From positions 1 to 40,388 of the forward strand of contig JAFVXW010000033.1 of assembly GCA_017500935.1 (NCBI GenBank): DNA of 40,388 nucleotides, in the 5' to 3' direction. The notes under the pieces were generated by a model. The model was not told the DNA's origin. It saw only the letters and a list, made by a program, of their open reading frames with translations, and made no database searches. The stretch is from Lachnospiraceae bacterium (GTDB taxonomy: Bacteria > Bacillota > Clostridia > Lachnospirales > Lachnospiraceae). The position numbers and the translations under genes are program-made. Numbering within the stretch: position 1 is the first letter of the stretch; the number at the start of each line of letters is the position of its first letter. Shown one piece after another: positions 4,145-37,202 of this stretch.

Positions 4145-5860
4145 TTAGTCTTCAATCGCTGCTTTTCTTGCGTTGATCGCATGGAAGATTGCGGGATCGA
4201 ATTTTGCCTTGCGGCCGTAAGTATACAGACCGTTTACTTCCTGCTCTACGTCGTAAAGCTGGGTGTAGCAGAAGCCGAACATATTGGGATTATCCAATAA
4301 CACATCGGTCAGACCGCGGTAGCGCTCGATGAACTCTTCTTCGGTCTTGGGTCCGTTGCCGTAGCCCCAGCTGTCTGCGATGGTCTGATCCACATCCCAC
4401 TTGATGCCGCCGTATTCACTGATGAAGGTAGGCAGGCCCATGATCTGCTTATCACCGGGCAGGGTCAGATGGCTGATCACGCCGGTAGTGCCAAATTCAG
4501 CAAAGTGAGCTGCAAATTCTGCAGGATCCTGAGTATAGTCATGTGCATCGTATACGTCGGTAACCACGTGATAACCGCCGGAAACATCCAGACAGGGTCT
4601 GGTGGGATCGTACTGCTTGGTCATCTGGTAAATAATACGGATCAGGTCTTCGTCATGCATACGTCCGTTGTATTTCCAGGATTCATTGACAGGGCACCAA
4701 CCGATGATGGAAGGATGGTTGAAATCGCGTTCCACAGCTTCCATCCATTCAGGCAGGAAAGTCTTTAATCTGTCGGCAAAGCTGAAATCACAGCCCCAGT
4801 TTGCATGCTCGCCCCATACAATGTAGCCGAGTCTGTCGCAGTGATACAGGAATCTGGGCTCAAAGATCTTTTCATGGAGGCGTGCGCCGTTAAAGCCCAC
4901 TGCCTGGGAGATCTTGATATCGTTGATGAGCGCTTCATCGGAAGCTGCGGTATAAATACCGTCGGGATAAAAGCCCTGATCCAGAACCAGACGCTGGAAT
5001 ACGGACTTGTTGTTGATCAGATATTTGTAGCCATCCAGACGTACACTTCTCATACCAAAGTAGCTCTTTACCACGTCTTCGCCAAAGGAAAGTTCCAGAT
5101 CGTACAGATTGCCCACGCCAACTTCCCACAGATGCAGTTCGGAAAGTGCGATGGTTAAACATGCGCTGTCAGCAGAAAGGATCTTCACCTGACCGCAGCC
5201 GCATTCTTTGCCTTCATAGGAAGCCTTTGCTGCCAGAGTGCCTGTTCCAACCACTTTTGCTTCAATGGTCAGAGTCTGGTTGTCGATATCGGTAAAATAA
5301 CGAACATTCTTAATATATGCCTTGGGCACAAATTCAAGCCATACAGTCTGCCAGATACCGGTGGTACGGGTATATACACATCCCCAGGATTCATAACGCT
5401 GGCTCTGCTTGCCTCTGGGCTGCATGGTGTCTCTGCTGTCGTCGATGGCATAAACAGTCAGGCTGTTGGTGCCGGGATTCAGCGCATCGGTGATATCAAA
5501 TGCAAAGGAGCTGTAGCCGCCTTTGTGCATGCCTACTTCCTTGCCGTTTACATAAACATGGCTTTCAAAATCAACTGCGCCAAAATGCAGGATCACATGG
5601 CCGTTTAACTGTTCTTCGGTGATCTCCACATTTTTCTGATACCAAACGGCATTCATATAATCTTTGTAGCCGATGCCGCTTAATTCACTTTCAGGACAGA
5701 AGGGCACGATGATCTTCTGTTCAAAATCGGTTCTTTCATACCATTTACGGTCAACACCGCTTTTGCCGAAGTCAAAAGCGAAATTCCATTCACCGTTTAA
5801 GTTCTGCCAGTTAGCTCTTTCCATTTGGGGAAAGGGATGTTCAGGTCTGGGCATTGCCAT
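4145..5860 (-). CDS. Glycoside hydrolase family 2 (beta-galactosidase/beta-glucuronidase type)
   Basis: The 571-residue protein has the GH2 order: sugar-binding jelly-roll domain (about 10-185, with FESHVYVNGKEVG), immunoglobulin-like domain (about 190-290) and TIM barrel. The acid/base is E393 in WCPVNESW and the nucleophile E482 in FISEYGG, both in the expected places. It is much shorter than LacZ (about 1000) and close to small bacterial GH2 enzymes; substrate specificity cannot be read. The barrel opening carries LVLDQGFYPDG instead of the LacZ-like RHEHHP motif. ATG 5860 is chosen because AGGAGG lies seven bases upstream; the frame remains open for 32 further codons without a better site. 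No signal peptide. A 145-base gap with a hairpin separates it from the upstream GH35 gene. Confidence 0.85.
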   Translation of the reverse strand: MAMPRPEHPFPQMERANWQNLNGEWNFAFDFGKSGVDRKWYERTDFEQKIIVPFCPESELSGIGYKDYMNAVWYQKNVEITEEQLNGHVILHFGAVDFESHVYVNGKEVGMHKGGYSSFAFDITDALNPGTNSLTVYAIDDSRDTMQPRGKQSQRYESWGCVYTRTTGIWQTVWLEFVPKAYIKNVRYFTDIDNQTLTIEAKVVGTGTLAAKASYEGKECGCGQVKILSADSACLTIALSELHLWEVGVGNLYDLELSFGEDVVKSYFGMRSVRLDGYKYLINNKSVFQRLVLDQGFYPDGIYTAASDEALINDIKISQAVGFNGARLHEKIFEPRFLYHCDRLGYIVWGEHANWGCDFSFADRLKTFLPEWMEAVERDFNHPSIIGWCPVNESWKYNGRMHDEDLIRIIYQMTKQYDPTRPCLDVSGGYHVVTDVYDAHDYTQDPAEFAAHFAEFGTTGVISHLTLPGDKQIMGLPTFISEYGGIKWDVDQTIADSWGYGNGPKTEEEFIERYRGLTDVLLDNPNMFGFCYTQLYDVEQEVNGLYTYGRKAKFDPAIFHAINARKAAIED

Positions 5861-5921
5861 GGGAATTTCCTCCTTATGTTGGATATCTTTTTTAAAAATA
5901 ATACTGACTATAGTATAAACG

Positions 5922-5943
5922 CTATCGCCGGGAAAAGCGATAG
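5922..5943. promoter_or_regulatory. Inverted repeat upstream of GH2 (operator or antisense terminator)
   Basis: 7-bp arms CTATCGC (5922-5928) and GCGATAG (5937-5943) around an eight-base loop. On the plus strand the hairpin is followed by ATTTTTTTT, so it could stop antisense transcripts. On the minus strand it sits just upstream of a TATACT box (5911-5916 region), where an operator for the GH2 gene would lie. No plus-strand gene ends nearby. Confidence 0.4.
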
Positions 5944-6005
5944 ATTTTTTTTGCACTTTTACAGCATTCCTTGTTGCTGCTTATGCTGTCTGCAGTAACG
6001 TTTCC

Positions 6006-7781
6006 TTACTCCAGCTCAGGTTCGTCTGTAAGAAAGACTGACTCTGCCGCCTTACCTTCCGTTTCAAACAAAATGATCTCGTTTTCCCCTTTATGCAGCA
6101 GGGCGCCGGGCAGATACAGGCGTTTCTGGGGACCAATTTCCCAGAATCTTCCCAGATTAAAACCGTTGACAAAAACAACGCCCTTGCCCCAGCCGGTAAA
6201 ATCCAGGAAAGTATCCTTTGCTTCGTCTGCCTCAAAGGTAAATCTGTAAAAGGCAGGAAGTCCTTCTGTATAATCCTTTTCAAAGCTTAAGTTTTCCAGA
6301 TTGTTCAACGGCAGACACCAGGCTGTCCAATCGTGCTGCGAAAAGGTCTGGTTGATATGTACGCAGTTATCAATGCCTTTTTTCTGGGTATTGAGCATCG
6401 GACCGTAATTGACGCGCCCCATATTTTCTGTCAGAAGCTTAAGTGTTTTGCCTTCGCATGCAGTCTCTTCAAAGCTCTGTTTTTCCAAAAGCTCCCTGTC
6501 AAAGGCAGTAAACAGCTTCTGTTCGTCCAGATAGCCGATGACACGGTCATTGGCGCCAAACAGGCGCACGCTGCGCAGTGTTTTTTCGGTATCCAGCACG
6601 GAAGTATACAGGGTATAGCCAAAATCCTGTCCCATCTGTTCCATGGACAGGGGTGTTTTGGTCTGCACCGGCTTGGAAAGCTCTGTCAGGGATTCAAACA
6701 GACCGGTTTTTTCGCAAACCTTTACTTCCCCGTAAGCTTTCGCATCTCTGCCGCCGAAGCTGTCGGGATCTGCCAGCGCTGCTTTCTTTTCTTCCGGCAG
6801 ATATCTGCAGATGATATCGCGGAATCGTCTGTACTTGGGTGTGATCTGTCCGTCCTCTGTCAAAAGTGCATCGTAATCGTAGGAAGTCACATCAGGCGTC
6901 AGGAAATCATAATAGTTTGCACCATTGTAAAAGCCAAAATTGGTGCCGCCCTGGAACATATAAAAATTCACATTGCCGTGCTGCAGCATGTATTCCAGAC
7001 ACTCTGCCGCCACTTGGGCATCGCCGTAATGCTTTTGGCTGCCCCAGGCATCAAACCAGCCGATCCAGAATTCCGCACACATCAGCGGACCGCCGTGGTT
7101 GTATTCTTTTAACAGTGTAAACGCTTCCTCTGCTCTGGAGCCGAAATTGGCGGTGGGAAACACCCCTTCAATGGCAGTGTTGGAAAGCATATTGTGCTGG
7201 GGACCGTCGGAGGAAAACAGCGGTATCGTAATGTCATTTCTGCGCATGATATCGCGGATCGCACGCAGATAATCCTTGTCATTGCCAAAGGAGCCGTATT
7301 CATTTTCCACCTGCATCATCAGTACCGGGCCGCCCCTGTCGATCTGCAGCGGTGCCAAAACTGCCATCAGCTTTTCATAATACCGCTCCACATACGCCAT
7401 AAATTTCGGATCGGATGTGCGCAGCTTCATATCTTCCTTTAACAGCCAGTAAGGCAGACCGCCGAACTCCCACTCCGCACAGATATAGGGAGTAGGGCGC
7501 AGAATGACCCACAATCCCAGCTTTTGTGCCTTTTTGACAAAGGCTGCGATATCCAGCATCCCGTGATATTTTTCACCGTAAAAATCAAACTGTCCGCTCT
7601 CCGGCTCATGCATATTCCAGGGGATATAGGTTTCCACGGTGTTGCAGCCCATGGCTGCCAGCTTTTTTAACCGGTCTTCCCAGTATTCGGGCAGTACACG
7701 GAAATAATGGATACTGCCGGATATGATCTGAAACGGTTCGCCGTTTACATAAAATTTGTCTTTGATCTCAAAGGTTCCCAT
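6006..7781 (-). CDS. Glycoside hydrolase family 35 beta-galactosidase
   Basis: The 591-residue enzyme is of the usual length for small bacterial GH35. It cleaves terminal beta-galactosyl residues. GH35 hallmarks follow in order: GSIHYFRVLPEYWEDRL near residue 22, TYIPWNMHEP around 52, LRPTPYICAEWEFGGLP around 95, the acid/base E161 in MQVENEYGSFG and the nucleophile E237 in CAEFWIGWFDAWG. The C-terminus holds beta-sandwich domains with GWGKGVVFVNGFNLGRFW near 545, typical of the family. AAGGAG lies nine bases before ATG 7781. It begins 12 bases after malQ, so the two are cotranscribed. No signal peptide, suggesting a cytoplasmic enzyme acting on imported galacto-oligosaccharides. Confidence 0.93.
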   Translation of the reverse strand: MGTFEIKDKFYVNGEPFQIISGSIHYFRVLPEYWEDRLKKLAAMGCNTVETYIPWNMHEPESGQFDFYGEKYHGMLDIAAFVKKAQKLGLWVILRPTPYICAEWEFGGLPYWLLKEDMKLRTSDPKFMAYVERYYEKLMAVLAPLQIDRGGPVLMMQVENEYGSFGNDKDYLRAIRDIMRRNDITIPLFSSDGPQHNMLSNTAIEGVFPTANFGSRAEEAFTLLKEYNHGGPLMCAEFWIGWFDAWGSQKHYGDAQVAAECLEYMLQHGNVNFYMFQGGTNFGFYNGANYYDFLTPDVTSYDYDALLTEDGQITPKYRRFRDIICRYLPEEKKAALADPDSFGGRDAKAYGEVKVCEKTGLFESLTELSKPVQTKTPLSMEQMGQDFGYTLYTSVLDTEKTLRSVRLFGANDRVIGYLDEQKLFTAFDRELLEKQSFEETACEGKTLKLLTENMGRVNYGPMLNTQKKGIDNCVHINQTFSQHDWTAWCLPLNNLENLSFEKDYTEGLPAFYRFTFEADEAKDTFLDFTGWGKGVVFVNGFNLGRFWEIGPQKRLYLPGALLHKGENEIILFETEGKAAESVFLTDEPELE

Positions 7782-11101: not shown

Positions 11102-11234
11102 GCTGCGCCTTCTCGGGTCTCTTTGCAAACGCTTCGCTTTTTGCAAAGCAGCGCCAACAGGCTGCGCCTTCTCGGGTCTCTTTGCAAACGCTTCGCTTTT
11201 TGCAAAGCAGCGCCAACAGGCTGCGCCTGTTGGC
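11102..11234. repeat. 59-bp tandem repeat (two full copies and a partial third) with palindromic end
   Basis: Two identical 59-bp copies lie at 11102-11160 and 11161-11219, and a third begins at 11220 and decays after about nine bases. Each copy contains an internal inverted repeat CTTTGCAAA...TTTGCAAAG. The junction with the partial third copy creates a perfect 9-bp stem, 11212-11220 against 11226-11234 (GCCAACAGG / CCTGTTGGC). The array lies in the probable 5' leader of the GH127 transcript, immediately before its RBS. 59 is not a multiple of three, so it is not protein-coding. Confidence 0.9.
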
Positions 11235-11243: not shown

Positions 11244-11301
11244 TATCTCTCTGGGGTTTTAAACCAGCGTTTTTTTCTTTCCATGTATTTTCTTGGGTTC
11301 A

Positions 11302-11655
11302 ACAAGCAAGGTGCTTCTATTTCCGTATTCCTGCTGGCCCAACTTTACTTTACACTTATGTTTCAACAAGTATGCCGCATATTTCTGGCATATCTGCTGG
11401 TCAATCCATCCTCAGTGGTCATATTTCCACAAGCACGTCGCGCCTTTTGGGCATATCTGCTGGTTAAACCACTCCCAATGGCTATGTTCCAACAAGCAAG
11501 GTACTTCTTTTTTTACATGTCTGCTGGTCAAGTATCGATAAACACTTAAATCTCAACAAGCAAATTGCTTCTTTTTCCGCATCACTGCTGGTCAAGTACC
11601 ATCAACAGCAATATTGTAACAAGCAGAGCTTATCATTTTTCCGATATTGCTGGTC
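11302..11655. repeat. Six-unit degenerate tandem repeat, period 63-64 bp
   Basis: Units begin with ACAAG(C/T)A at 11302, 11366, 11429, 11492, 11556 and 11619 (spacings 64, 63, 63, 64, 63). Every unit carries TGCTGG 29-30 bases later (11332, 11395, 11458, 11522, 11586, 11648). The block from ACAAGCA to TGCTGGTCAA, about 38 bases, is the better conserved part; the remaining roughly 25 bases vary. ACAAGCA and TGCTGGT can pair with a single A-G mismatch, and most units also hold a local hairpin of the AAGCA-N3-TGCTT type. The array fills the intergenic space between the divergent GH127 and GH78 genes. One-base changes of period break any reading frame, which argues for a DNA- or RNA-level element. 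Confidence 0.85.
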
Positions 11656-11667
11656 TGACTCCAGCAA
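11647..11667. repeat. Perfect 7-bp inverted repeat at the end of the 63-bp array
   Basis: TTGCTGG (11647-11653) and CCAGCAA (11661-11667) flank a seven-base loop. The left arm is the last TGCTGG of the tandem array. No T-run follows on either strand, so it is not an evident terminator. Confidence 0.6.
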
Positions 11668-21290: not shown

Positions 21291-23660
21291 TTACCATTCC
21301 ATCAGATTTACTTCTCTGCCGTTTTCATCAACAGTCTTTAATTCGTGGTGTGCCACGTTACAGGTAATATCCTTATCAAAAATACGGATTTTCGCCGCTG
21401 TATCCTTGCCGTTCCATTCGTTGAAACGAAGGATCACATCATCGGAGTCCTCCGCTTTTTTCACTGCGGTCACAACGATATCGTCACAGCTGCACTCATA
21501 ACAGCTCATCTGCTCAGGCAGTGTGCCTGTATGGAAGCTTTCTGTCACAGACTGCAGGCCGAAGTTTAATACCTGTGCCCTGCGCTCCGCATCCGCATTG
21601 GTGGTATAAGGGAAAATACTGTAATTAAACTCATGAATTCCCTGATCCATATATTCACACAGGTCATCTCTGACACCAAAATGATCGGCATAGATCGCGC
21701 CGCGCAGAATGCTCATGCGCATTTCGCCGTTTTCGGTGTCATAACCGTATTTGGCATCATTTGCCACACAGATATCCCCGGAAGCCATCCAGCTGCCGAA
21801 AGGCTCTTCGCCGGTATAACCCACTCTTTCAATCGTGCCGTAAGGAATCTGTGCGATCACCTTTTCATCCGTCATCGGGAAGGTGAATTTGAGCAGTTTA
21901 TGCTTTTCATGGAAATCTGCTTTTACGGCCACTTTCACTTCGCTGCTGCCTGCTGTCAGCATATAGTCTCTGACCAGTGCAGAATTGCCGTAGGAAGTGA
22001 TCACGCGCAGCTTTGTCCTTACGGGCCCTTCTTCCACAATACGGAATACGGGATCACCGAATCTTCCCACTGTCTCACCAAGATAAATCTTGTCATGCGC
22101 CCAGGTGTCGCAGTCAGTTTCATCCACAAGCACCGCTTTGCAGGTCTTTCCGATCAGCTCTTTGTCGTTTTCCTTATCATAAAAACGGCAGATATCGCCG
22201 GTGGAAGCGTCAAATTCCACACGCACTTTGTCATTTTCCATAAATCTGCTGCCGACAGACATCGGATTTTCAAATGCCGCTTCGCTTTCCTTTTCCAGAT
22301 ACGCTCTGTAAACGGTATAGCCCATAGGAGGAACTTCTGCCAGGAATGCAGTATAATACTTATCGTTTTCGCAGTTGGTCTGCTGGCCGCGCACAATCTG
22401 GAAAGGCACCTCACTGCCGTAAACATCCGTCACCTTTTTGGCAACAGAATTCACATAGACAGGCATGGAAACAGGCCAGGTATAGGGATTAAATACCACC
22501 ACAGGAGTGCCAAGCACCTCATGTCCCCACAGCTGCCAGTAGACACCGCCCTTGTAGGAGGGAAGCGTTTCACCCTGTAGGGTATCAATTCTGCGGCTGA
22601 TGCTCTGCAGCGAAAAATTCATGATCTGCTCGGTCATGCTCATGGTCTCGCCGTAAGCATAGCCCGCATCTGTGTAAGCATCCTTAATGGAACAGCCGCC
22701 CAGAATATCATGGAACTGGTTAAACAGCACATTCTTCCAGCCCCTGGTCAGTTTTTCCTGTGGATATGCCACGCCTGCGATCTTATTTGCCATTACTGCA
22801 AACATTTCCGCACGCAGCAGATTGTTCTCACAGTTTCTGTTGGACTGTTTGACGAAGCTGCATGCGGTATAACAGCCCCTTGCGTGGTGCTGCAGCTCAT
22901 CATGCACCACCTTCATGCCGGATTTATCCATTTCGTCAAAATATTCGTCAGGAGTGGAATACTTTGCATCGATCGTGGGCAGGGCATTGATCGCATCCAT
23001 CAGTTCAATGGTAGGACCGCCGCCGTGGTTGCCCACACCGTAGAATGCCATATAATCCTGATTTTCTTCATTGGCTCTTTTCTGAATCTTTTCCATCCAG
23101 GGAAGTTCTTCTTTTTTCAGGCAATAAGAATAAGGAATACGGAAGGTATTCACCTGGCTGCCGTCATCGCTTTCCCATTTAAAGAAGCTTTCCTTAATAT
23201 CCTTTTCATTGGGCATCGGACGCATGAACACATAGTTATCCATGCCGCTGTTTTTCAAAATCTTGGGAAGGCTGGCATTATGTCCAAAGGAGTCTACATT
23301 ATAGCCGGTCTTGGCGGTCACACCGAATTTTTCCTTAAAATAACGCTGGGAGATCAGTGCATGGCGCGCAAAGCTTTCACCTGTGGGAATATTACAGTCA
23401 GGCTGAATATACCAGCCGCCCACAATGCTCCATCTGCCTTCTGCCACTCTCTGTTTGATCTCCGCAAACATATCGGGATCCACTTTTTCCACCCATTCAT
23501 AGTAGCCTGCGCAGGCACTGGTAAACTTAAAATCATCAAAATCCTTCATGCGTTCCAGCGCACTTCTGTAAGTCGCCAAAATCTCCGCAAAACCCTCTTT
23601 CCATCTCCAAAGCCACACCGGGTCTAAATGTGCATTGCCGATCAGATATAATTTTGCCAT
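21291..23660 (-). CDS. Alpha-mannosidase (GH38)
   Basis: The 789-residue enzyme belongs to the shorter bacterial GH38 group. Zinc ligands H11 and D13 lie in IGNAHLDPVWLWRW, the nucleophile is D123 in GYNVDSFGHN, and the surrounding family motifs GGWYIQPDCNIPTGES and KNVLFNQFHDILGGCSI (zinc-site His) are intact. The C-terminal half is the usual beta-rich mannosidase domain. It removes alpha-linked mannose; no signal peptide, so imported N-glycan or mannan fragments are the likely substrate. AAGGAGGAG precedes ATG 23660. A strong promoter with an overlapping palindrome lies just upstream. It is cotranscribed with a His-rich NifX-domain gene, an unusual partner. Confidence 0.93.
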   Translation of the reverse strand: MAKLYLIGNAHLDPVWLWRWKEGFAEILATYRSALERMKDFDDFKFTSACAGYYEWVEKVDPDMFAEIKQRVAEGRWSIVGGWYIQPDCNIPTGESFARHALISQRYFKEKFGVTAKTGYNVDSFGHNASLPKILKNSGMDNYVFMRPMPNEKDIKESFFKWESDDGSQVNTFRIPYSYCLKKEELPWMEKIQKRANEENQDYMAFYGVGNHGGGPTIELMDAINALPTIDAKYSTPDEYFDEMDKSGMKVVHDELQHHARGCYTACSFVKQSNRNCENNLLRAEMFAVMANKIAGVAYPQEKLTRGWKNVLFNQFHDILGGCSIKDAYTDAGYAYGETMSMTEQIMNFSLQSISRRIDTLQGETLPSYKGGVYWQLWGHEVLGTPVVVFNPYTWPVSMPVYVNSVAKKVTDVYGSEVPFQIVRGQQTNCENDKYYTAFLAEVPPMGYTVYRAYLEKESEAAFENPMSVGSRFMENDKVRVEFDASTGDICRFYDKENDKELIGKTCKAVLVDETDCDTWAHDKIYLGETVGRFGDPVFRIVEEGPVRTKLRVITSYGNSALVRDYMLTAGSSEVKVAVKADFHEKHKLLKFTFPMTDEKVIAQIPYGTIERVGYTGEEPFGSWMASGDICVANDAKYGYDTENGEMRMSILRGAIYADHFGVRDDLCEYMDQGIHEFNYSIFPYTTNADAERRAQVLNFGLQSVTESFHTGTLPEQMSCYECSCDDIVVTAVKKAEDSDDVILRFNEWNGKDTAAKIRIFDKDITCNVAHHELKTVDENGREVNLMEW

Positions 23661-23680
23661 AGGAACTCCTCCTTGCCGGT

Positions 23681-23695
23681 ATCAGATATTCTGAT
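23681..23695. promoter_or_regulatory. Operator-like palindrome overlapping the GH38 promoter
   Basis: ATCAGATATTCTGAT is a perfect inverted repeat of 6-bp arms with a three-base centre. It overlaps the -10 box and the expected start of transcription, the classic position for repressor binding. Confidence 0.55.
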
Positions 23696-23722
23696 TATAA
23701 AATTGCCAAACAGGAAAGTCAA
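23694..23722 (-). promoter_or_regulatory. Sigma-A promoter for GH38 and the NifX-domain gene
   Basis: On the minus strand -35 TTGACT (23717-23722) and -10 TATAAT (23694-23699) are separated by exactly 17 bases, 34 bases upstream of the GH38 start. This is one of the best promoter matches in the window. Confidence 0.85.
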
Positions 23723-23735
23723 GCTGCCCTTCCGT

Positions 23736-24824
23736 TTACTGCCGTGCCGCCTCTGCCTTTGCATCAAACATATCCACGATCTGCCCCATCAGCTCCTCGT
23801 CCAGCTTGTAATAGACCGTGTAATCTATAAATTCCTTCCGGAATGCCGCATGGATTTCTGTGCTGTCCGACAGCTTGTTTTCGTACAGATATCTGCTGTA
23901 GGCCGCCTCGTAATGCCTGCGGTTTTTGATGGTTTCCGTAGGATAAAACAGCTGGCTGTGTCCGCGGCTGCCATAAAGAACAAAATGAACCCGCTCCTTC
24001 CCACTGTGGGCTTTGTAAAACAGATCGTAACCGTTTTCCTGCAGAACAGTTTTGTCATCTTTGCTGTGCACGATCAGAATCTGCGCATCCTTTGCCGCCT
24101 CAATGCCTTCACTGGCTGTCGTCAGCGCATATTTTCCATATTTTGCCCACTCATAAACCCGCACAAAGGGAATCAGCAGATCTCCATATTTTCCTGCCTT
24201 ATTGCGGCCTTCCTGACGCAAAAGCGCCGCTGAGCTGTCAATACCGGCAAACAGCACCGCGCCCTGAATATCCGTGTGAAAATTCAGCACATTTCCCACG
24301 GAATAACCGCCCCAGCTGTGCCCCATCAAAAAAACAGGCAGCCCCTGATAATCTGCGTCTTTTTTTACATAGCGCAGCGCATAATCCAGATCGATGATCC
24401 CCTGCGGAAAACCGCCTATGTATTTGCCTTCACTCTCATAATTACCCGTAATATCATAGGAAAAAACAGCATACCCATGTTCCGCCATATAGGCGATCAG
24501 AGGCATGTAAATACAGTGACTGCCGCCGCCGAAGCCGTGAGCAAACACCATGACCCCCTTGGGCGCTTCCACCTGTTCCATCCGGTATTTGTAACCGACA
24601 AGAGTATGCCCCTGTTTTGTCTGGAACAAAACCCGCTTGGCCTGCAGTCCTTCAAAATCTTCTGCCGTAAAAATCTCATCTGCATCCGGCTCAAACCGCA
24701 CCTTAAAAACTGACTGATATACCATCACCGAAACAGCAAACGCTGCGATAAGCGCCAAAACCACGATCACAGCCAGAACAATTACACTTATTTTCAGCAT
24801 TTTCTTTCCTCTTTCCGTATTCAT
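23736..24824 (-). CDS. Membrane-anchored alpha/beta hydrolase
   Basis: The 362-residue protein has an N-terminal hydrophobic segment (about 12-32, preceded by basic residues) that would anchor or export it, then a lipase/esterase-type alpha/beta hydrolase domain. VMVFAHGFGGGSHCIYMP provides the oxyanion region, the nucleophile serine is in MGHSWGGYS, the acid is in HSKDDKTV and the histidine in SRGHSQLFYP. The substrate is unknown; monoacylglycerol lipase-like or peptidase-like relatives exist. The ATG at 24824 has AAAGGAG nine bases upstream; an upstream TTG is less likely. A promoter with TATAAT lies immediately before it, divergent from the sulfite-reductase-like gene. Confidence 0.85.
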   Translation of the reverse strand: MNTERGKKMLKISVIVLAVIVVLALIAAFAVSVMVYQSVFKVRFEPDADEIFTAEDFEGLQAKRVLFQTKQGHTLVGYKYRMEQVEAPKGVMVFAHGFGGGSHCIYMPLIAYMAEHGYAVFSYDITGNYESEGKYIGGFPQGIIDLDYALRYVKKDADYQGLPVFLMGHSWGGYSVGNVLNFHTDIQGAVLFAGIDSSAALLRQEGRNKAGKYGDLLIPFVRVYEWAKYGKYALTTASEGIEAAKDAQILIVHSKDDKTVLQENGYDLFYKAHSGKERVHFVLYGSRGHSQLFYPTETIKNRRHYEAAYSRYLYENKLSDSTEIHAAFRKEFIDYTVYYKLDEELMGQIVDMFDAKAEAARQ

Positions 24825-24849
24825 GTCCAAAACTCCTTTTACAAGGTCT

Positions 24850-24877
24850 ATTATACACCATGATTTACTGTATGCAA
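24850..24877 (-). promoter_or_regulatory. Promoter of the alpha/beta hydrolase gene
   Basis: Minus-strand -35 TTGCAT (24872-24877) and -10 TATAAT (24850-24855), 16-base spacer. Its -35 box directly abuts the -35 box of the divergent promoter. Confidence 0.75.
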
Positions 24878-24906
24878 TTGATTTCCTGCCGTTTCGGTGC
24901 TACAAT
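24878..24906 (+). promoter_or_regulatory. Promoter of the sulfite-reductase-like gene
   Basis: Plus-strand -35 TTGATT (24878-24883) and -10 TACAAT (24901-24906), 17-base spacer, 53 bases before the ATG at 24960. Confidence 0.75.
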
Positions 24907-24959
24907 GAAACTGATTGATATTCTCAGCAAACCTTCTGTTTTCAAGGAGACTAACTATT

Positions 24960-25862
24960 ATGAACAACATTACAACCCAAAATGCTTTAACCCCTGAACA
25001 GATCAAATATGTAAAAAGTCTTGGCTGTCTGCGCGACAAACGCTATCCTGATGTCTTCAACGTGCGCGTCATCACCAGAAACGGCCGCCTCACTTCTGCA
25101 GAACATCATGCCATTGCAGAAGCTGCAGAGCGCTTCGGCAGCGCCGCTGTTGCCATGACCTCCCGCCTTTCTCTGGAAATCCAGGGTGTCAGATACGACA
25201 ACATCGAAGCTTTGATCGCATTCCTGAAAGAAAATGGTCTGGAAACCGGCGGCACCGGTCCTTTGGTCCGTCCTGTTGTTTCCTGTAAGGGAACCACCTG
25301 TCAGTACGGCCTGATCGATACCTTCGGCTTAAGCGAAAAGATTCACGAGCGTTTCTATATCGGTTACCACAATGTAACCCTGCCTCACAAGTTCAAGATC
25401 GGCGTCGGCGGCTGCCCCAACAACTGTGTCAAACCCGATTTAAACGATCTTGGCATCATCGGCCAGAAAGTCCCCACTGTTGACCTTTCCAAATGCCGCG
25501 GCTGCAAAAAATGTCAGGTGGAAGCAGCCTGCCCCATCAAGCACGCTCAGGTGATCGACGGCAGGATCTGCATTGATCCTGCACAGTGCAATCACTGCGG
25601 ACGCTGTCAGGGCAAATGTCCTTTCGGCGCGGTTGCGGAATACCAGCAGGGCTACAAAGTATGCATCGGCGGACGCTGGGGCAAAAAAGTGGCGCAGGGC
25701 CGTCCTCTGGGCAAAATATTTACTTCCGAAGAAGAAGTTCTTGATATCGTTGAAAAAGCGATCCTGCTGTTTAAAAACGAAGGCATTGCCGGTGAACGTT
25801 TTGCAGACACCATCAACCGCCTTGGTTTTGAATATGTGGAAGATAAACTCTTAAATTCCTAA
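24960..25862 (+). CDS. Sulfite/nitrite reductase-like siroheme-4Fe-4S protein with ferredoxin domain
   Basis: The 300-residue protein begins with a ferredoxin-like half domain (to about 95), followed by the siroheme/4Fe-4S site: C109 and C114 (SCKGTTCQYG) and C152 and C156 (GCPNNCVKP). An inserted 2[4Fe-4S] ferredoxin follows with C179, C182, C185, C191 and C210, C213, C216, C220. This order is that of small single-chain dissimilatory-type sulfite reductases and AsrC-like proteins of anaerobes; reduction of sulfite (or nitrite) with electrons from ferredoxin is the expected reaction. The first cysteine pair is spaced by four residues. No asrA/asrB neighbours are present, so it works as a single gene or with distant partners. 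AAGGAG lies ten bases before ATG 24960. Cytoplasmic. Confidence 0.85.
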   Translation: MNNITTQNALTPEQIKYVKSLGCLRDKRYPDVFNVRVITRNGRLTSAEHHAIAEAAERFGSAAVAMTSRLSLEIQGVRYDNIEALIAFLKENGLETGGTGPLVRPVVSCKGTTCQYGLIDTFGLSEKIHERFYIGYHNVTLPHKFKIGVGGCPNNCVKPDLNDLGIIGQKVPTVDLSKCRGCKKCQVEAACPIKHAQVIDGRICIDPAQCNHCGRCQGKCPFGAVAEYQQGYKVCIGGRWGKKVAQGRPLGKIFTSEEEVLDIVEKAILLFKNEGIAGERFADTINRLGFEYVEDKLLNS

Positions 25863-25932
25863 AAAAACTGCGCATCGCGCAATCAAAAAAATATGCACTT
25901 TGCGCATATAAATATTGTCCCTATCAGGATCT

Positions 25933-26071
25933 GCCGGACCGCACAGACGGTGAATGGCTTTAAAACGTATCCGTAAGGACTGACACAATACAGACAGGGG
26001 GCTTTTGTTCCTTCTGTTTGCTGTGCCGGTCGCCGGAAAACCAAGGCCTCCACCGCCTGTACGGTTCTTTT
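25933..26071 (+). ncRNA. Candidate structured leader RNA (riboswitch-like) before the metal-chelate ABC operon
   Basis: A long-range helix joins 25933-25946 (CCGGACCGCACAG core) with 26021-26036 (CTGTGCCGGTCGCCGG), about 13 pairs with two small bulges. Inside it are a CAGACAG/CTGTTTG hairpin (25991-25997 with 26014-26020) and a TCC-GTAA-GGA mini-hairpin (25970-25979). It is followed by a terminator-like hairpin: AACC (26039-26042) and AGGC (26044-26047) pair with GCCT (26055-26058) and GGTT (26063-26066), then TTTTGTTTTG. The element occupies most of the 246-base gap before the binding-protein gene. I do not recognise a known riboswitch class; the cobalamin consensus was looked for and not found. 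Confidence 0.45.
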
Positions 26072-26108
26072 GTTTTGCCCAAACTCTTTATGGAAAGGAT
26101 ATTCATTC

Positions 26109-27119
26109 ATGTCAAATAATTCCGTTGCCCGCCGTCAAATGACTTTGATCGCGGCCCTCCTACTGCTTCTGACATCGATCCTCACCGGATGCAGCGCCAG
26201 CTCTGCTGTCCCCTCACAGGAGTCTGACACAGTTATCGGGGCATCTGCCGATACCGATTTAGAGGCAGCCTGCACCTTCACCGATGCACTCGACCGCAGC
26301 GTCACGGTCCATGCTCCCCGGCGCACTGCAGCCCTTCTGGGCAGTTTTGCGCAGATCTGGCAGCTGGCAGGAGGTGAAGTCTGTGCCACGGCCGATGATG
26401 CCTGGGATGACCTTGCACTTGACCTTGCCCCTGATACGGTCAATCTGGGCAAAACCAAGGAGCTGAGCCTGGAAAAGCTTCTGGAAGCCCGGCCCGATTT
26501 TATCCTTGCCAGCACCAACACGCGCCAGAACGTGGAATGGAAAGACACGCTGGAAGCTGCAGGCATTCCCGTGGCCTATTTTGACGTTTCGGATTTTGAA
26601 GATTACCTGCAGCTTCTCAAAATCTGCACCTCCATCACCGGGCGCAGCGATCTGTATGAAAAAAACGGACTTAATGTCCAGACACAGATCGAGGCTGTTC
26701 TGCAAAAAAGTCAGGAACGCATCGCCGTCAGCGACAGCCCAAAGGTTTTGTCTCTGGCAGCATCCGCCTCCAAAGTACGCGCCAAAAACAGCACCAGCAA
26801 TGTGCTGGGCAGAATGCTGTATGCGCTGGGCTGTGAAAACATTGCCGATTCCGACCAAACACTGCTGGAAAATTTAAGTCTGGAACATATCCTGCAGGCC
26901 GACCCGGATTTTATTTTTGTGGTCCAGCACGGTGATGATACGGAGGGAACGCGCAGACTGTTTGAGCAGATGATGGACGAACAGCCCGCCTGGAAACAGC
27001 TTTCCGCTGTGCGCAGCGGCCGCATTTATTTTATGGAAAAATCACTTTACAGCTTAAAACCCAATCATCGCTGGGGCGAAGCCTATGAACTGCTGGAGGA
27101 AATTCTTACTGATGAATAA
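26109..27119 (+). CDS. Iron-siderophore/corrinoid ABC transporter substrate-binding lipoprotein
   Basis: The 336-residue precursor has a lipoprotein signal with lipobox ILTGC (C28). The mature protein is a type III (BtuF/FhuD/FepB) binding protein: FTDALDRSVTVHAPRRTAALL, LSLEKLLEARPDFILASTNT, and YALGCENIADSD in the second lobe. It captures a metal chelate (ferric siderophore, haem or cobalamin) at the cell surface and delivers it to the permease next door; the ligand is not readable. ATG 26109 has GAAAGGA about ten bases upstream; an in-frame ATG 39 bases earlier has no RBS. It overlaps the permease gene by eight bases. Expression may be controlled by the structured leader upstream. Confidence 0.9.
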   Translation: MSNNSVARRQMTLIAALLLLLTSILTGCSASSAVPSQESDTVIGASADTDLEAACTFTDALDRSVTVHAPRRTAALLGSFAQIWQLAGGEVCATADDAWDDLALDLAPDTVNLGKTKELSLEKLLEARPDFILASTNTRQNVEWKDTLEAAGIPVAYFDVSDFEDYLQLLKICTSITGRSDLYEKNGLNVQTQIEAVLQKSQERIAVSDSPKVLSLAASASKVRAKNSTSNVLGRMLYALGCENIADSDQTLLENLSLEHILQADPDFIFVVQHGDDTEGTRRLFEQMMDEQPAWKQLSAVRSGRIYFMEKSLYSLKPNHRWGEAYELLEEILTDE

Positions 27120-28098
27120 AAAGCTTCTCTTTACGGCCGCTGCATTTTTTGTCCTGCTTACGGCACTGTTTGGACTTCTTCTGGGCGCCGCCAGCTTGTC
27201 TTTGCCGCAGCTGGTACATGCAGTCATAAACGGCCCTGCCGATACCGCAGGCGCGATTTTCTGGTATGTCAGGCTCCCGCGCACTGCTGCAGCACTCCTT
27301 TCGGGTGCCGCCCTTGCCACCGCCGGCTGTATCATTCAAAATGTGTTAAACAGTAAACTGGCATCTCCCGGTATCATCGGTGTCAACGCAGGCGCCGGCC
27401 TTTTTGTCACACTCTGCTGTGCGTTTGGCGTTGTGTCCGGCTGGGCGATCGCTGCATCTGCCTTTTTTGGTGCGCTGCTTTCTGTTTTTCTGGTGATGTA
27501 TCTTGCCTGCAAAACAGGTGCTTCCCGCACCACCGTCATTCTTTCCGGTGTGGCTGCAAACAGTATTTTAAATGCCCTTTCCGAAGCGGTCACCACTCTG
27601 GTTCCCGATGCGGCCGCCATGACAGTGGATTTCAGAGTCGGCGGTTTTTCCTCCGTGGCATATACGCGCCTGATCCCGGCAGGTATTCTGATCCTGTCTG
27701 CACTGGCTGCTGTCTTTACATTATGCAATGAACTGGATCTTTTATCCCTCGGGGAAGAAACAGCCCAGAGCCTTGGACTGCCAGTCCGCAAAACCCGCAC
27801 CCTGCTTTTGCTTCTTACCGCCATGCTGGCAGGCGCTGCCGTCAGCTTCAGCGGGTTATTAGGCTTTGTCGGACTGATCGTACCCCACGCAGTCCGCAGA
27901 CTTGTGGGAACGGAAAGCAGATATACGCTCCCGCTGTGTGCTTTGGGCGGCGCAGGCTTTGTCGCCTCCTGCGACCTGGCCGCGCGTCTTCTTTTTGCAC
28001 CGTACGAACTGCCCGTCGGCATTTTAATGTCTGTGATCGGCGGTCCCTGTTTTCTGGTGCTTTTATTAAAAAAGAAAGGAGAGCCGCAGTATGAGTAA
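27112..28098 (+). CDS. Iron-siderophore/corrinoid ABC transporter permease (FecCD/BtuC family)
   Basis: The 328-residue polytopic membrane protein shows the FecCD features: WYVRLPRTAAALLSGAALATAG near residue 48, NVLNSKLASPGIIGVNAGAG near 80, and LLGFVGLIVPHAVRRLVGTE near 250, the ATPase-coupling region. About nine to ten helices are expected. The start at 27112 overlaps the upstream stop (ATGAATAA) and has GGAGGA 11 bases before it, so translational coupling is likely. It would form a homodimer with two copies of the ATPase from the next gene. Confidence 0.94.
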   Translation: MNKKLLFTAAAFFVLLTALFGLLLGAASLSLPQLVHAVINGPADTAGAIFWYVRLPRTAAALLSGAALATAGCIIQNVLNSKLASPGIIGVNAGAGLFVTLCCAFGVVSGWAIAASAFFGALLSVFLVMYLACKTGASRTTVILSGVAANSILNALSEAVTTLVPDAAAMTVDFRVGGFSSVAYTRLIPAGILILSALAAVFTLCNELDLLSLGEETAQSLGLPVRKTRTLLLLLTAMLAGAAVSFSGLLGFVGLIVPHAVRRLVGTESRYTLPLCALGGAGFVASCDLAARLLFAPYELPVGILMSVIGGPCFLVLLLKKKGEPQYE

Positions 28099-28855
28099 TG
28101 CTGTACACATAAAAAACACCTGTGCCGGATATGTCAGCAAAGATGTCCTTTTTGATATCAATATGCAGATTCCTGCAGGAAAGATCACTGTCATTGTCGG
28201 TCCAAACGGCTGCGGCAAATCCACGCTTTTAAAAACCCTTTGCGGTCTTGTACCTGTTCGCCGCGGTGACATTCTGATCGGTGACCGTTCCATCCATGAT
28301 TTTACGCCGCAGATGCTGGCAAGACAGATCGCTTTCCTGCCGCAAAACCGGCCTGTTTGCGCCGCCACTGCCGGACAGATGGTGCTTCATGGGCGTTTTC
28401 CCTATTTATCATATCCCCGCCGTTACCGTACCTCCGATCAAAAAATCGCACAGCAGGCCATGGAACGTATGGGAATCAGCGGCCTTGCCGATTCCCCCAT
28501 ACATACCCTTTCCGGCGGTATGCGCCAGAAAGTATATATTGCCATGGCACTGACACAGGACACACCCGTTATTCTGTTTGACGAACCCACCACCTATCTT
28601 GATATTTCCCACCAGCTGCAGATGATGGAACATGCCCGTTTTCTGTGCCGGGAAGGGAAAACGGTTGTGATGGTGCTCCACGATCTTCCCATGGCACTTA
28701 AACTTGCTGACAGAATTGCTGTCATGCAAGACGGCAGGATCACCGCCTGCGGCACACCGGAGGAAATCTATGCCTCCCAATGTCTTGATGCCGTATTTGG
28801 CGTAGGCCTGCGCCGGGTACAGACTGATGATGGATGGCAGTATTATACGGTTTGA
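28091..28855 (+). CDS. Iron-siderophore/corrinoid ABC transporter ATP-binding protein (FecE/BtuD family)
   Basis: The 254-residue ATPase completes the importer. Walker A is GPNGCGKST (around 38), the Q-loop region IAFLPQNRPVCA, the signature LSGGMRQK, Walker B VILFDEPTTYLDI and the switch histidine in VVMVLHDLPMA. The gene overlaps the permease by eight bases, with AAAGGAGA upstream. No terminator with a T-run follows; only a small GTGCA/TGCAC palindrome is seen near 28858. Confidence 0.94.
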   Translation: MSNAVHIKNTCAGYVSKDVLFDINMQIPAGKITVIVGPNGCGKSTLLKTLCGLVPVRRGDILIGDRSIHDFTPQMLARQIAFLPQNRPVCAATAGQMVLHGRFPYLSYPRRYRTSDQKIAQQAMERMGISGLADSPIHTLSGGMRQKVYIAMALTQDTPVILFDEPTTYLDISHQLQMMEHARFLCREGKTVVMVLHDLPMALKLADRIAVMQDGRITACGTPEEIYASQCLDAVFGVGLRRVQTDDGWQYYTV

Positions 28856-28900
28856 AGTGCACAGCTGCACATCAACACTGCAGAAGCCTTGCGTTTCCCC

Positions 28901-29377
28901 TCAGGACTCTTCCACCAGTTTCCCGCAGATATGCTCCGGAACCAGCTTCATCAGTACCGTGCGATGCGCATGCTTCTCAATTTCATCTTCAATATATGCT
29001 TCATCCTGCGTAAACTTATAGCTGAGCTTTCTGGTGATCGCTTTAATGGTTTCCTGATCCTCAAGCAGTTCCATTCTGCCAAAAATAATGACACTCTTTA
29101 CATTGAGCGCCCACTCGCCTTCTTTGCGGTATCCCTGATCATACACACAAAAGGAAACTCTGCTGTCCTTTTTCAGTGCCTCCAGCCGATGTCCGATGTT
29201 GCCGCCATGAAAATAGACACATCCGTCCTCTTCTTCGTACCAGTGATTCATAGGCATACCGTAAGGATAGCCGTCATCTCCGCACACTGACAGCACACCG
29301 CGCTTTTCACTCCTTAATACCCGCACGCAGTCCTCCATGGACAGCTGCTTATCTTTTCTGATCAATTCCCGAAACAT
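28901..29377 (-). CDS. Pyridoxamine 5'-phosphate oxidase-related flavin-binding protein
   Basis: The 158-residue protein has the split-barrel FMN-binding fold of the PNPOx-like/NimA group: MEDCVRVLRSEKRGVLSVCGDDGYPYGMPMNHWY at the N-terminus and VYFHGGNIGHRLEALKKDSRVSFCVYD in the middle. Such proteins in gut Clostridia are small flavoproteins of largely unknown reaction; some are nitroimidazole reductases. ATG 29377 follows AGGAG by eight bases. It begins 28 bases after the iron-sulfur flavoprotein gene and ends the unit. Confidence 0.88.
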   Translation of the reverse strand: MFRELIRKDKQLSMEDCVRVLRSEKRGVLSVCGDDGYPYGMPMNHWYEEEDGCVYFHGGNIGHRLEALKKDSRVSFCVYDQGYRKEGEWALNVKSVIIFGRMELLEDQETIKAITRKLSYKFTQDEAYIEDEIEKHAHRTVLMKLVPEHICGKLVEES

Positions 29378-29405
29378 TTCTCTTACTCCTGTCCACTCAT
29401 AAAAA

Positions 29406-30023
29406 TCAACGGATAAAGTTTGTAGATACTCTTTTTTCCTGTTCAGGCAGGCCAAACTTCTCTTTTCCCAGTGCAATACTCTTCATCAGGAATGCCATAT
29501 TGGCTGCCAGCGTCCGCATGATCTGAAGCCCCTCGCCATCCTGCACTCCTTCTCCGGGAGCTGTCCCATGAATACTGTTCCAATACTGACCGGACGCCAC
29601 AGGCATACCCGAAATCGTAAAATATTTGTTCAGCACATCAAAGCTGGAAGACAGACCGCCTCTGCGTGCTGCCACTACAGCCGCTCCCACCTTCATCCGC
29701 TTGTCAAAGCCGGTACTGTAAAACAGACGATCCAACACTGCGATCAAGGTTGCGTTGGGACTGGCATAATATACGGGACTGCCCACCACAAGGCCATCAC
29801 ATTCCTCAAATTTTGATGCCAGTTCATTCACAACATCATCCACCACACATTTTCCGTTCCGATAGCAGTAGCCGCAGGCCACACAACCGCGCACAGCCAG
29901 ATGTCCTACCTGTACGATCTCCGTTTCGATTCCTTCTTTTAAAAAAACGGCTTCCATTTCCTTTAAGGCAATCGCCGTATTTCCGTTTGCCCTGGGACTG
30001 CCGTTTAGCAGCAATACCTTCAT
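29406..30023 (-). CDS. Iron-sulfur flavoprotein / NAD(P)H-dependent FMN reductase family
   Basis: The 205-residue flavodoxin-fold protein starts with the FMN phosphate loop MKVLLLNGSPRANGNTAIAL. A compact cysteine motif C47-x2-C50-x2-C53-x5-C59 (CVACGYCYRNGKC) matches the CX2CX2CX4-7C pattern of archaeal and clostridial iron-sulfur flavoproteins, so a 4Fe-4S cluster plus FMN is expected. GLVVGSPVYYASPNATLIAVLDRL is the second FMN-binding loop. It likely shuttles electrons in the cytoplasm. AGGAGGAA precedes ATG 30023. Adjacent to the PNPOx-like gene and 15 bases after the URO-D-like gene. Confidence 0.88.
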   Translation of the reverse strand: MKVLLLNGSPRANGNTAIALKEMEAVFLKEGIETEIVQVGHLAVRGCVACGYCYRNGKCVVDDVVNELASKFEECDGLVVGSPVYYASPNATLIAVLDRLFYSTGFDKRMKVGAAVVAARRGGLSSSFDVLNKYFTISGMPVASGQYWNSIHGTAPGEGVQDGEGLQIMRTLAANMAFLMKSIALGKEKFGLPEQEKRVSTNFIR

Positions 30024-30038
30024 AACTTCCTCCTGTTA

Positions 30039-31022
30039 TTACCCTTTGTATTCCCGATACTCTCTCACCGCATCAAACAGTGCCACGATATTTTCCTTCG
30101 GGATTTCGTAATTCAGTTCAATATTCAGCGCCAGACCGCCCTGGGGCAAATACATCCGCTGTACGCATTCCCGCACATGCTCACGGATCTGTGCCGGTTT
30201 TGCAAACGGGAACATCTGACGATCCAGATCCAGATTGATCGGAATCTTTCCTTTGCATACCTGTTCCAGTCTGTCCAGACCGTTGGCCCTAAACTGCGGA
30301 TTGACCATATTGGCGCCAACCTCATACAGATCCGGGATGATCTCATGGATGCATCCGTCTGTATGCATATAAACATAGATGCCCTTATCACGAAATACCT
30401 TATAAATCTGCGCAAAGCAGGGTTTTAAATACTTACGCCATTTCGCCGCACCGATCGCCAGGCCGTTCTGCATCCCCAGATCATCGCCCAGATACACGAT
30501 ATCGCCCGGTTTCATTTTAGCTGCGGCAACCTCTGCCTGTATCAGATTATACTGAAGCACTTTGTCAAGCAAAGTTTCCAGCGCTTCTCCTTCTTCCGCA
30601 AAATCAATCATCGCCTCTTCAAAACCGCGCAGATCAAGAAGCCGCAGATACATAAAACCATGGGGCAGACTGCCGTCTCTGTTTTTAGGAATTTCCAGCT
30701 TGAAAATGTCGTCCTGTGTCGGCACAGGATGTCCTGTCACGATACCGTCCATGCCATGTTCCACATTGCTGAAAACACATCCCCACTCATCCACCCATTC
30801 ACCGCAGCGATAACGGGCTGAAAGATTCTCTTCCAGATGCTCCAGATCCGGAAGCAGCATAATATCCTGATACTCACTGACCAGCTCTGCAAGCTCCTTT
30901 CCCCTTTTCATCCAGGCCGCCGGCAAAAAACCGCAGCTAACCGGAATCACCTCGGGATAGTCGTAAGTCATCGCTTTTTTCATCAGTTCCTGATGATATA
31001 CAGGATCAAATTTTTTGTACAT
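30039..31022 (-). CDS. Uroporphyrinogen decarboxylase-fold (URO-D family) protein, second copy type
   Basis: The 327-residue protein has the URO-D/MtaA barrel. It shares with the 15813-16781 protein the motifs DDLGMQN (around 180) and HTDGC (H220-C224), so both belong to one subfamily although overall they differ. In characterised corrinoid methyltransferases a HxCG motif binds zinc; here aspartate replaces the cysteine, leaving the reaction open. ATG 31022 is chosen because GGGAGGG lies eight bases before it; the frame is open for 22 further codons. It heads a unit with the iron-sulfur flavoprotein and PNPOx-like genes, which suggests redox-linked C1 or demethylation chemistry, but that is inference. 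Confidence 0.75.
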   Translation of the reverse strand: MYKKFDPVYHQELMKKAMTYDYPEVIPVSCGFLPAAWMKRGKELAELVSEYQDIMLLPDLEHLEENLSARYRCGEWVDEWGCVFSNVEHGMDGIVTGHPVPTQDDIFKLEIPKNRDGSLPHGFMYLRLLDLRGFEEAMIDFAEEGEALETLLDKVLQYNLIQAEVAAAKMKPGDIVYLGDDLGMQNGLAIGAAKWRKYLKPCFAQIYKVFRDKGIYVYMHTDGCIHEIIPDLYEVGANMVNPQFRANGLDRLEQVCKGKIPINLDLDRQMFPFAKPAQIREHVRECVQRMYLPQGGLALNIELNYEIPKENIVALFDAVREYREYKG

Positions 31023-31101
31023 ACTGTTTTCCCTCCCAGCCATACAGAGTCTATTCCCAGCCTGTGTGTTTACACCGGTCTGTGTCATTCCTGCTGCCTC
31101 T

Positions 31102-31110
31102 ATTATAACA
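31102..31110 (-). promoter_or_regulatory. Extended -10 promoter for the URO-D-like unit
   Basis: TGTTATAAT on the minus strand (TGn directly before TATAAT at 31102-31107), no good -35. It lies about 80 bases before ATG 31022. Confidence 0.5.
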
Positions 31111-31179
31111 GCATCCCGGTTTAAATGCTATCACAAAGCTGATTTGCGGCACTTATCTCTTATAAAAAACAGCAAAATA

Positions 31180-31188
31180 TGGTACAAT
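31180..31188 (+). promoter_or_regulatory. Extended -10 promoter for the flavodiiron gene
   Basis: TGGTACAAT (TGn plus TACAAT at 31183-31188), with a weak -35 (TTATAA). It lies 67 bases upstream of the ATG at 31255. Confidence 0.5.
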
Positions 31189-31254
31189 GATGCAAACTGG
31201 ATTTGAACTACTAATACTTGCGCATTCCCACCGGAACCGCAGACAGGAGGAACT

Positions 31255-32598: not shown

Positions 32599-32610
32599 GA
32601 TTTTTTAGCA

Positions 32611-32644
32611 AAAGGAGGAATCGGCATCAGCCGATTCCTCCTTT
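32611..32644 (+). terminator. Terminator of the flavodiiron gene
   Basis: Perfect 15-bp stem (32611-32625 with 32630-32644), four-base loop, then ATTTTGTTTG. TTTT on the other strand means it may also stop the minus-strand GH95 transcript. Confidence 0.92.
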
Positions 32645-32775
32645 ATTTTGTTTGAAATTGCCTCCTGACATGTAAAACAGCAAAATTTCATTTTTTACTT
32701 GCTGCCATTATTCGCCGCCGTTGAACTCTTGTAACTACGCTGTTTTGATATACTATTCCGATTCCATCTTCATTA

Positions 32776-34971: not shown

Positions 34972-35034
34972 ACATCAGATTCCCCCTTATCAATATGCCG
35001 CCAAACTTTCGTACCGCACCTATTTCTTTGCTGC

Positions 35035-35979: not shown

Positions 35980-36030
35980 CGATTCTCCTTTCCAAATCAT
36001 CTGACCGCACACCGCCGCTTCCGCCTTGCC

Positions 36031-37191: not shown

Positions 37192-37202
37192 AGCAATGCT
37201 CC

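Follow-up and report, generated by a model that had tools for sequence, protein, structure and literature searches.

The window, by which we mean the whole 40,388-nucleotide stretch of Lachnospiraceae DNA analysed here, carries between 1837 and 14037 a run of glycosidase genes on the minus strand (GH42-like, GH2, GH35, GH77 and GH127) opposite a GH78 gene, and more glycosidases (GH38, GH95 and GH5) lie within 21291-38294. The GH127 gene (beta-L-arabinofuranosidase family, PF07944; 9353..11071, minus strand) and the GH78 gene (alpha-L-rhamnosidase family, PF17389 and PF08531; 11845..14037, plus strand) diverge from likely start codons that we read from the sequence, at 11071 for the former and at an ATG at 11845, following AAGGAGGG, for the latter. 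Within the 773-bp gap between these starts, 231 bp from that of GH127 and 190 bp from that of GH78, sits an array of six 63/64-bp units (11302..11655), to which we assign no strand. A perfect 59-bp direct repeat in 2.2 copies (11102-11228) lies between the GH127 start and the array, and a terminator-like hairpin on the plus strand (11212-11234) is found at this repeat. Read on the plus strand, each unit joins a left arm, ACAAGCA or in unit 2 ACAAGTA, to a right arm, TGCTGG: 11302-11308 and 11332-11337 in unit 1 (11302..11337), 11366-11372 and 11395-11400 in unit 2 (11366..11400), 11429-11435 and 11458-11463 in unit 3 (11429..11463), 11492-11498 and 11522-11527 in unit 4 (11492..11527), 11556-11562 and 11586-11591 in unit 5 (11556..11591), and 11619-11625 and 11648-11653 in unit 6 (11619..11653). 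Successive units begin 64, 63, 63, 64 and 63 bp apart, and TGCTGG lies 29-30 bases 3' of ACAAG in all six. The arms are 95% identical between units, a figure in which 5 of the 7 positions per arm are identical by construction, as the arms were found by ACAAG and GCTGG; identity is 45-46% in the inner linkers and 41-47% in the outer ones. The first-pass annotation had described just such an array, with fixed arms in otherwise diverged sequence, and had called it non-coding, and we agree on both points, finding no frame open across it.

TGCTGGT is the near-inverse of ACAAGCA (its reverse complement being ACCAGCA), and the arms repeat one half-site of about 9 bp, CAACAAGCA, inverted at every other copy. 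The array can thus be written as CAACAAGYA and TGCTGGT in alternation, one half-site every 31-32 bp on average. When such alternation is scored as a chain in which an 8-mer and its reverse complement take turns, the longest chain in the window has 7 members, against at most 3 in 25 dinucleotide-preserving shuffles. The same half-site, which we call family A, is found at three further places in this genome (G000, 95% complete), giving 16 units in all: the six of the window (C16), six in the gap between rsmH and a PadR gene (C79:68k), three between an ABC-transporter permease gene and a GH43 gene (C79:237.8k), and a lone unit whose neighbours are an HTH-TPR gene and a nitroreductase gene (C44). 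The linkers differ among the four places, and one family-A position is degenerate (A/C) without compensation. Because the right half-site outside the window array is mostly TGCTTGT, we take the family consensus to be CAACAAGYA-N~22-TRCTTGTTG. A sequence-only model of the 16 units, with which we scored the best 150 of 1259 first-look candidates in this genome and 150 in each relative, returned those 16 as its best matches here, below which come three weak matches elsewhere (E 0.07-0.93) and a hit to the other strand of the C79:68k array. Among the best 150 candidates of each of 12 other genomes of the genus there was no convincing match, the one weak hit having an E of 0.08. Copies of the element do occur elsewhere in this genome; within the genus the family is, on these candidates, restricted to it.

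Arrays of the same design built on other half-sites occur both here and in other Lachnospiraceae. We looked for them with two sequence-agnostic detectors: one requires an 8-mer to alternate with its reverse complement in steps of 27-37 bp, and the other is an open scan that accepts periods from 30 to 150 provided inverted copies recur at a constant offset; near-palindromic 8-mers were excluded, and block-shuffle controls of both detectors gave zero hits. Coverage of this genome was 757 kb, picked partly around known arrays. It holds a ACATGTAC array adjoining prfA with a period of 63.5 (C86), a nine-unit CATGCAAAT array with a period of 52 that has a glycosidase gene on either side (C79:222k), and a weaker CATGCAAA-type array with a period of 62 (C2). 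The nine-unit array (L198 2122-2560) alternates CATGCAAAT and ATTTGCATG at steps of 25/27 bp, and its last two half-sites change together to TTTGCCTG and CAGGCAAA, extending to a longer hairpin. Arrays of different half-site families also lie directly upstream of PadR-like regulator genes at L163 and L274, the PadR assignment coming from Pfam in L163 and by eye in L274. Among the other genomes, G340 has five measured arrays of a TTACCWTCC half-site (63.7-65 bp) and a possibly coding 63-bp TGCGTTCC array; three arrays each were measured for TTAGTCACT in G320, TGCCTACGC in G341 and AGACCC in G277, one of the last between genes that we judged by eye to be secY-like and adk-like, and two of 62 bp for CGTTGCAC in G086. 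A seventh genome, G040, yielded a AACCGTAT array (period 53, inner step 22) after the 22 arrays had been measured, and was the only source of an array in 329 kb from 20 genomes. There was no chain of at least 4 in 230 kb of G320, where the open scan gave two weak hits, and no array in the 200 kb sampled from each of G047 and G181. The perfect TTACCWTCC unit has 32 copies in G340 and none in 199 other genomes searched. As a net for arrays of about 63 bp, an AACAAG pattern allowing only periods of 62-66 matched 15 of 397 genomes against 14 with a reversed control, so this motif is not enriched family-wide. Several of the arrays came to light through this pattern, and the limit on period applies to them.

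The 22 measured arrays leave out arrays of G150 and G255, G340 C3, a second G277 array, two further G341 arrays and C2 of this genome, and the G340 array of C22 in L172 is the same as that of L267. Detector hits set aside were G320 L219 and L223, G340 L261 (86 bp) and L264 (30/33 bp), and L281 (111 bp) and L195 (chain of 4) of this genome. Further tandem arrays of about 64 bp lie near measured ones, at L167 1006-1145 (G341, with AGACATACC/GGTATGTCT arms), L169 1762-2121 (G341) and L173 2965-3245 (G277). Among 25 arrays checked, 19 lack a frame that stays open from end to end, and the six crossed by one are C79b, G340_L263, G340_C3, G086_b, G277_C27 and G277_C43. Two of these with exact 63-bp periods, G340 L263 (among the 22) and G340 C3, could be coding. 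Exact 63-bp arrays with open frames throughout on one or both strands are seen at G340 L263 5100-6010 and L170 1724-2405, and 63-bp repeats in G046, G267 and G313 that looked coding from the letters were left out. In G340 the first 132 bases of contigs C5, C15 and C16 each hold a recurring unit, TTACCTTCC-AATGYAAGAAAAAACTTAAAT-GGAAGGTAA, and units stand near contig ends as if arrays break assemblies. We found no description of Lachnospiraceae arrays of such design in the literature searched, most subscription papers lying outside its reach.

Across the 22 arrays, from six genomes, half-sites alternate every 23-38 bp (mean about 32), and periods are 62-65 bp except for one of 52. In each of the five other genomes one of the two spacings is near-constant and the second shifts by roughly a base apart from occasional larger steps. 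The inner spacing is 30 bp in 30 of 31 pairs in G340 (5 arrays), 26 bp in 14/14 in G277 (3 arrays), 27 bp in 16/16 in G341 (3 arrays), 30 bp in 8/8 in G086 (2 arrays) and 34 bp in 22/25 in G320 (3 arrays). Constancy within an array, or between G340 L265 and L267, which share linkers and so count less as independent evidence, can come from duplication; the G340 spacing is also the same across arrays with different linkers. Family-A half-sites in this genome shift by about a base, with a spacing of 29-30 in the window and 28-32 by a noisier automatic assignment. Because the steps are uneven in G277 (26/37), G341 (27/37) and G320 (34/30), only the dyads and the full period keep phase there. The open scan, which was not bound by the 62-66 limit, gave four clear families with other half-sites or in genomes that the pattern had not caught. 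Their periods are 63.5, 52, 53 and 41 bp, which at 10.5 bp per turn make 6.05, 4.95, 5.05 and 3.9 turns. A second array of the CATGCAAA type in this genome has 62 bp instead of 52. As the weaker hits that we set aside have periods of 30, 33, 78, 86, 108 and 111 bp, the helical-phasing argument, which is post hoc, is suggestive and not proven. A central run of at least three A or T is present in 25 of 25 inner linkers and 12 of 22 outer linkers of the five measured arrays of this genome, a contrast that is weaker or reversed in some other genomes, where the run is sometimes in the other linker.

Inverted arms could also pair within a transcript, and pairing had been central to the annotation's account, with one A-G mismatch per unit and a wobble in unit 2. 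That description holds for units 2-6, which pair at 6 of 7 positions if the wobble is counted; in unit 1 the right arm reads TGCTGGC, which gives a second mismatch (5/7). A competing AAGCA-N3-TGCTT hairpin had been described in most units. In a fixed register units 1-6 form 5, 3, 2, 4, 5 and 2 of its 5 pairs, so that it is complete only in units 1 and 5, and dealing its 3' halves out among the units shows no partner effect (21 pairs observed, mean 21.2 over all permutations). Small hairpins in any register do exceed those of mononucleotide shuffles, the best stem averaging 4.0 against 2.98 (P ~0.001), an excess to which units 1, 4 and 5, alike by descent, contribute. If pairing were selected, one would expect true partners to match better than partners reshuffled within the same array, and over 22 arrays they do not, with 979 paired cells against 984.3 (sd 3.2) in the first register and 953 against 948.5 (sd 3.3) in the second; many arrays are uninformative in this test, their permutation sd being 0. 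Changes on both sides occur in 5 of 1174 and 9 of 1141 cells, and 195 and 188 cells are unpaired. The 18 arrays that remain without L263 and three family-A arrays give 797 against 801.3 and 781 against 779.8 (z -1.6 and +0.4), and removing L263 alone gives z -2.2 and +1.3. Since the test assigns half-sites automatically, with up to 3 mismatches, and places some of those in C16 visibly off register (steps of 28), we recounted family A on an alignment of hand-cut units: across the 16 units no pair out of 7 has changed on both sides, and one of the pairs fails to form in 9 of them. No compensatory change is seen in family A. In G340 the position W of TTACCWTCC makes T-A, A-A or T-T depending on the array. 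The window array folds no better than shuffles on the plus strand (z +0.24) and gives z -1.94 on the minus strand, where 6 of 100 shuffles are as stable, and no Rfam family matches it at the gathering threshold. As the partner arms do not covary and the RNA is no more stable than its shuffles, we see no support for RNA hairpins.

Our best explanation, to which we would give an even chance, is that the arrays are tandemly amplified, helically phased lattices of half-sites for one or more predicted sequence-specific DNA-binding proteins. Each unit holds two inverted copies of CAACAAGCA, separated by about three helical turns and with an A/T-tract close to the inner dyad, and because the next unit follows at about six turns, the dyads lie on one face of the helix. 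We propose that a sequence-specific and probably self-associating protein binds the half-sites cooperatively and coats or bends the intergenic DNA, and that its effect might be on local chromosome structure or insulation. The arrays may grow and shrink through tandem duplication, with selection holding the half-sites and their spacing and leaving the linkers to drift; ACATGTAC, CATGCAAAT and the half-sites of other Lachnospiraceae would then serve other binders through the same architecture. A DNA lattice fits better than an RNA because the half-sites behave independently, their spacing is near-fixed and the period is near whole turns. A position that degenerates without compensation (A/C in family A, A/T in TTACCWTCC) is what one would see in a protein recognition site, and the similar rows that relatives build from other words suggest docking tracks, not RNA hairpins or a two-gene switch. 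Of the annotation's proposal of selected RNA or protein-binding elements, the conserved and probably selected elements in a diverged array are retained, as is protein binding, one of the options that it offered; the RNA is not. Counting against the lattice reading, it calls for more than one protein in a genome that has several half-site families.

How the arrays are distributed among relatives bears on what they could be for. In a comparison of 110 GH78 loci (738,942 bases, the window's own locus included) there is no other chain of at least 5, and the weaker signals are a low-complexity chain of 4 at L093, 41 bp in 16 copies at L088 and 108 bp at L024. At several of these loci the contig breaks off with little DNA upstream or none (e.g. 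L027, a genus relative, with 189 bp); among the six genus relatives whose GH78 is 61-66% identical, five have at least 1.4 kb upstream. The L088 repeat (5387-6040) has a palindromic ATCCAAT..ATTGGAT core, stands beside a GH78 relative and is covered by no listed ORF, and L024 3357-3720 (G004, a genus relative) holds different, GC-rich repeats in both orientations (GCCAGGGGCGATGCAG...) upstream of GH78. No array is found at the prfA loci of 12 genus relatives, of which L237 and L240 stop some 400 bp beyond the gene and L245 is partial, nor at the rsmH locus of the one relative that passed the cut-off. The annotation had looked to copies in related genomes and to compensatory changes to bear out its proposal, and on that score the RNA reading fails at this locus. 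As the arrays are absent from orthologous places in relatives, we see no conserved regulatory role, and with divergent, codirectional and convergent gaps all represented, nothing points clearly to a role in 3'-UTRs or promoters. The best reading is that arrays are gained and lost fast.

The main rival to the lattice, and a serious one even if we think it unlikely, is that the arrays are functionless satellites, produced by slippage or rolling amplification of a quasi-palindromic seed. In that case the six-turn (or five-turn) period would reflect a physical preference of amplification, and the half-sites would look conserved through recent duplication or detection bias. Arrays that sit in gaps of all three orientations in one genome of the genus, with none at orthologous loci, would suit a satellite, as would the near-identity of whole units in some arrays (G340 L266 and L263). 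A satellite accounts less well for the diverged arrays C16 and C79:68k, where half-sites stay near 95% identical or recognisable while the C16 linkers fall to 41-47%, for the recurrence of one half-site at four places with different linkers, or for the equal inner spacing of G340 arrays whose linkers differ.

It is less probable still, and in our view doubtful, that the arrays are elements of the REP, BIME or REPIN type moved by a RAYT-like or other transposase. Alternating orientation, extragenic location, genome-specific families and several loci per genome would all agree with this, and so would two features of G340, where one unit recurs at many places and the arrays L265 18660-19250 and L267 15280-15800 have common linkers and flanks, with GTATAGGTTGTGAAACAC or a variant inverted around them. 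This shared flank and end motif suggests that some arrays may have moved within a larger element, and L265/L267 are perhaps a mobile element carrying an array. Of 24 arrays, three, every one in G340, have flanking inverted repeats above the highest control value (L267, 19 against 10; L265, 15 against 14; L261, 12 against 10), and none of the six arrays tested in this genome does. Y1 transposases (Y1_Tnp) match once in G320, nine times in G341 and three times in G086, with one match below the cut-off in G277. However, there are none in this genome or in G340, and G047 and G181 have Y1_Tnp yet no array in the DNA sampled. The G340 half-site, at up to one mismatch, has 84 sites against 42.7 expected, arrays included; the four exact copies inspected outside arrays lack a partner at array spacing, and this genome has only one solitary family-A unit.

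The annotation had suggested that the array coordinates the two divergent glycosidase operons, and its position 231 bp and 190 bp from their likely starts could be cited for a multi-site operator of GH127 and GH78, as could the glycosidase genes beside two more arrays in this genome. Against it, the half-site is shared with the rsmH/PadR, ABC-permease/GH43 and HTH-TPR/nitroreductase gaps, GH78 loci of relatives have no such array, we found no sigma-70-like promoter in the gap, and a Pfam scan of 29 window proteins, 4 of them without a match, showed no regulator, so that we regard coordination as improbable. An array of structured RNA hairpins, for which complementary arms, the minus-strand fold and the excess of small hairpins could be cited, is very improbable, the covariation and fold tests having led us to reject conserved RNA hairpins, and an integron attC-like idea was dropped by inspection.

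If the lattice reading is right, several gut Lachnospiraceae organise intergenic DNA by genome-specific, helically phased arrays, and the protein partner could be fished directly with an array as bait. More speculatively, and here we would bet against ourselves, the arrays may represent an undescribed class of Lachnospiraceae chromosomal elements, phased rows of alternating half-sites that serve as lattices for fast-evolving architectural DNA-binding proteins whose specificity shifts with the arrays from species to species, forming a centromere-like or nucleoid-organising system with no known counterpart in other bacteria. If the arrays are instead neutral, bacterial satellites can take on a period near whole helical turns and an alternating symmetry without a detectable RAYT transposase. 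Either way, such arrays could confuse CRISPR finders and RNA-motif searches.

CRISPR arrays have a similar period and partly palindromic units. Unlike them, the array described here has no unique spacers, since both linkers look like diverged copies, and its arms alternate throughout. BIMEs and REP clusters are short intergenic elements with regular spacing and alternating orientation, species-specific and present at several loci, and some are reported to bind proteins (PMC2817692, PMC3116915, PMC3733652). The arrays here share the regular spacing in alternating orientation and the extragenic location. They differ in being built of half-sites of 8-10 bp where BIME/REP elements are imperfect palindromes of about 20-40 bp; CAACAAGCA, at 9 bp, is non-palindromic, although family B does have a palindromic core, ACATGT. 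The GTAG (or CGTC) tag found at one end of REP elements is also missing, 11299-11658 containing no GTAG, CTAC or GACG and a single CGTC at 11436, in unit 3 only. The cognate RAYT is lacking here and in G340, compensatory hairpin changes like those of BIME/REP are not seen, and, unlike BIMEs, family A occurs mostly in arrays with a period near whole helical turns. The F plasmid sopC/parS centromere consists of twelve 43-bp tandem repeats, each holding an inverted repeat to which a dimer binds, and serves as a lattice for a partition protein (PMC9178275). The likeness lies in tandem repeats with inverted arms and in the proposed lattice. Whereas sopC has a single 16-bp inverted repeat per unit, the arms here are about three turns apart, and unlike sopC the arrays are on contigs with ordinary chromosomal genes, at several places and with several half-site types per genome; among the same 29 window proteins, 4 of them without any match, there is no partition family. 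BIMEs thus come nearest in architecture among described systems, and sopC gives the nearest functional picture.
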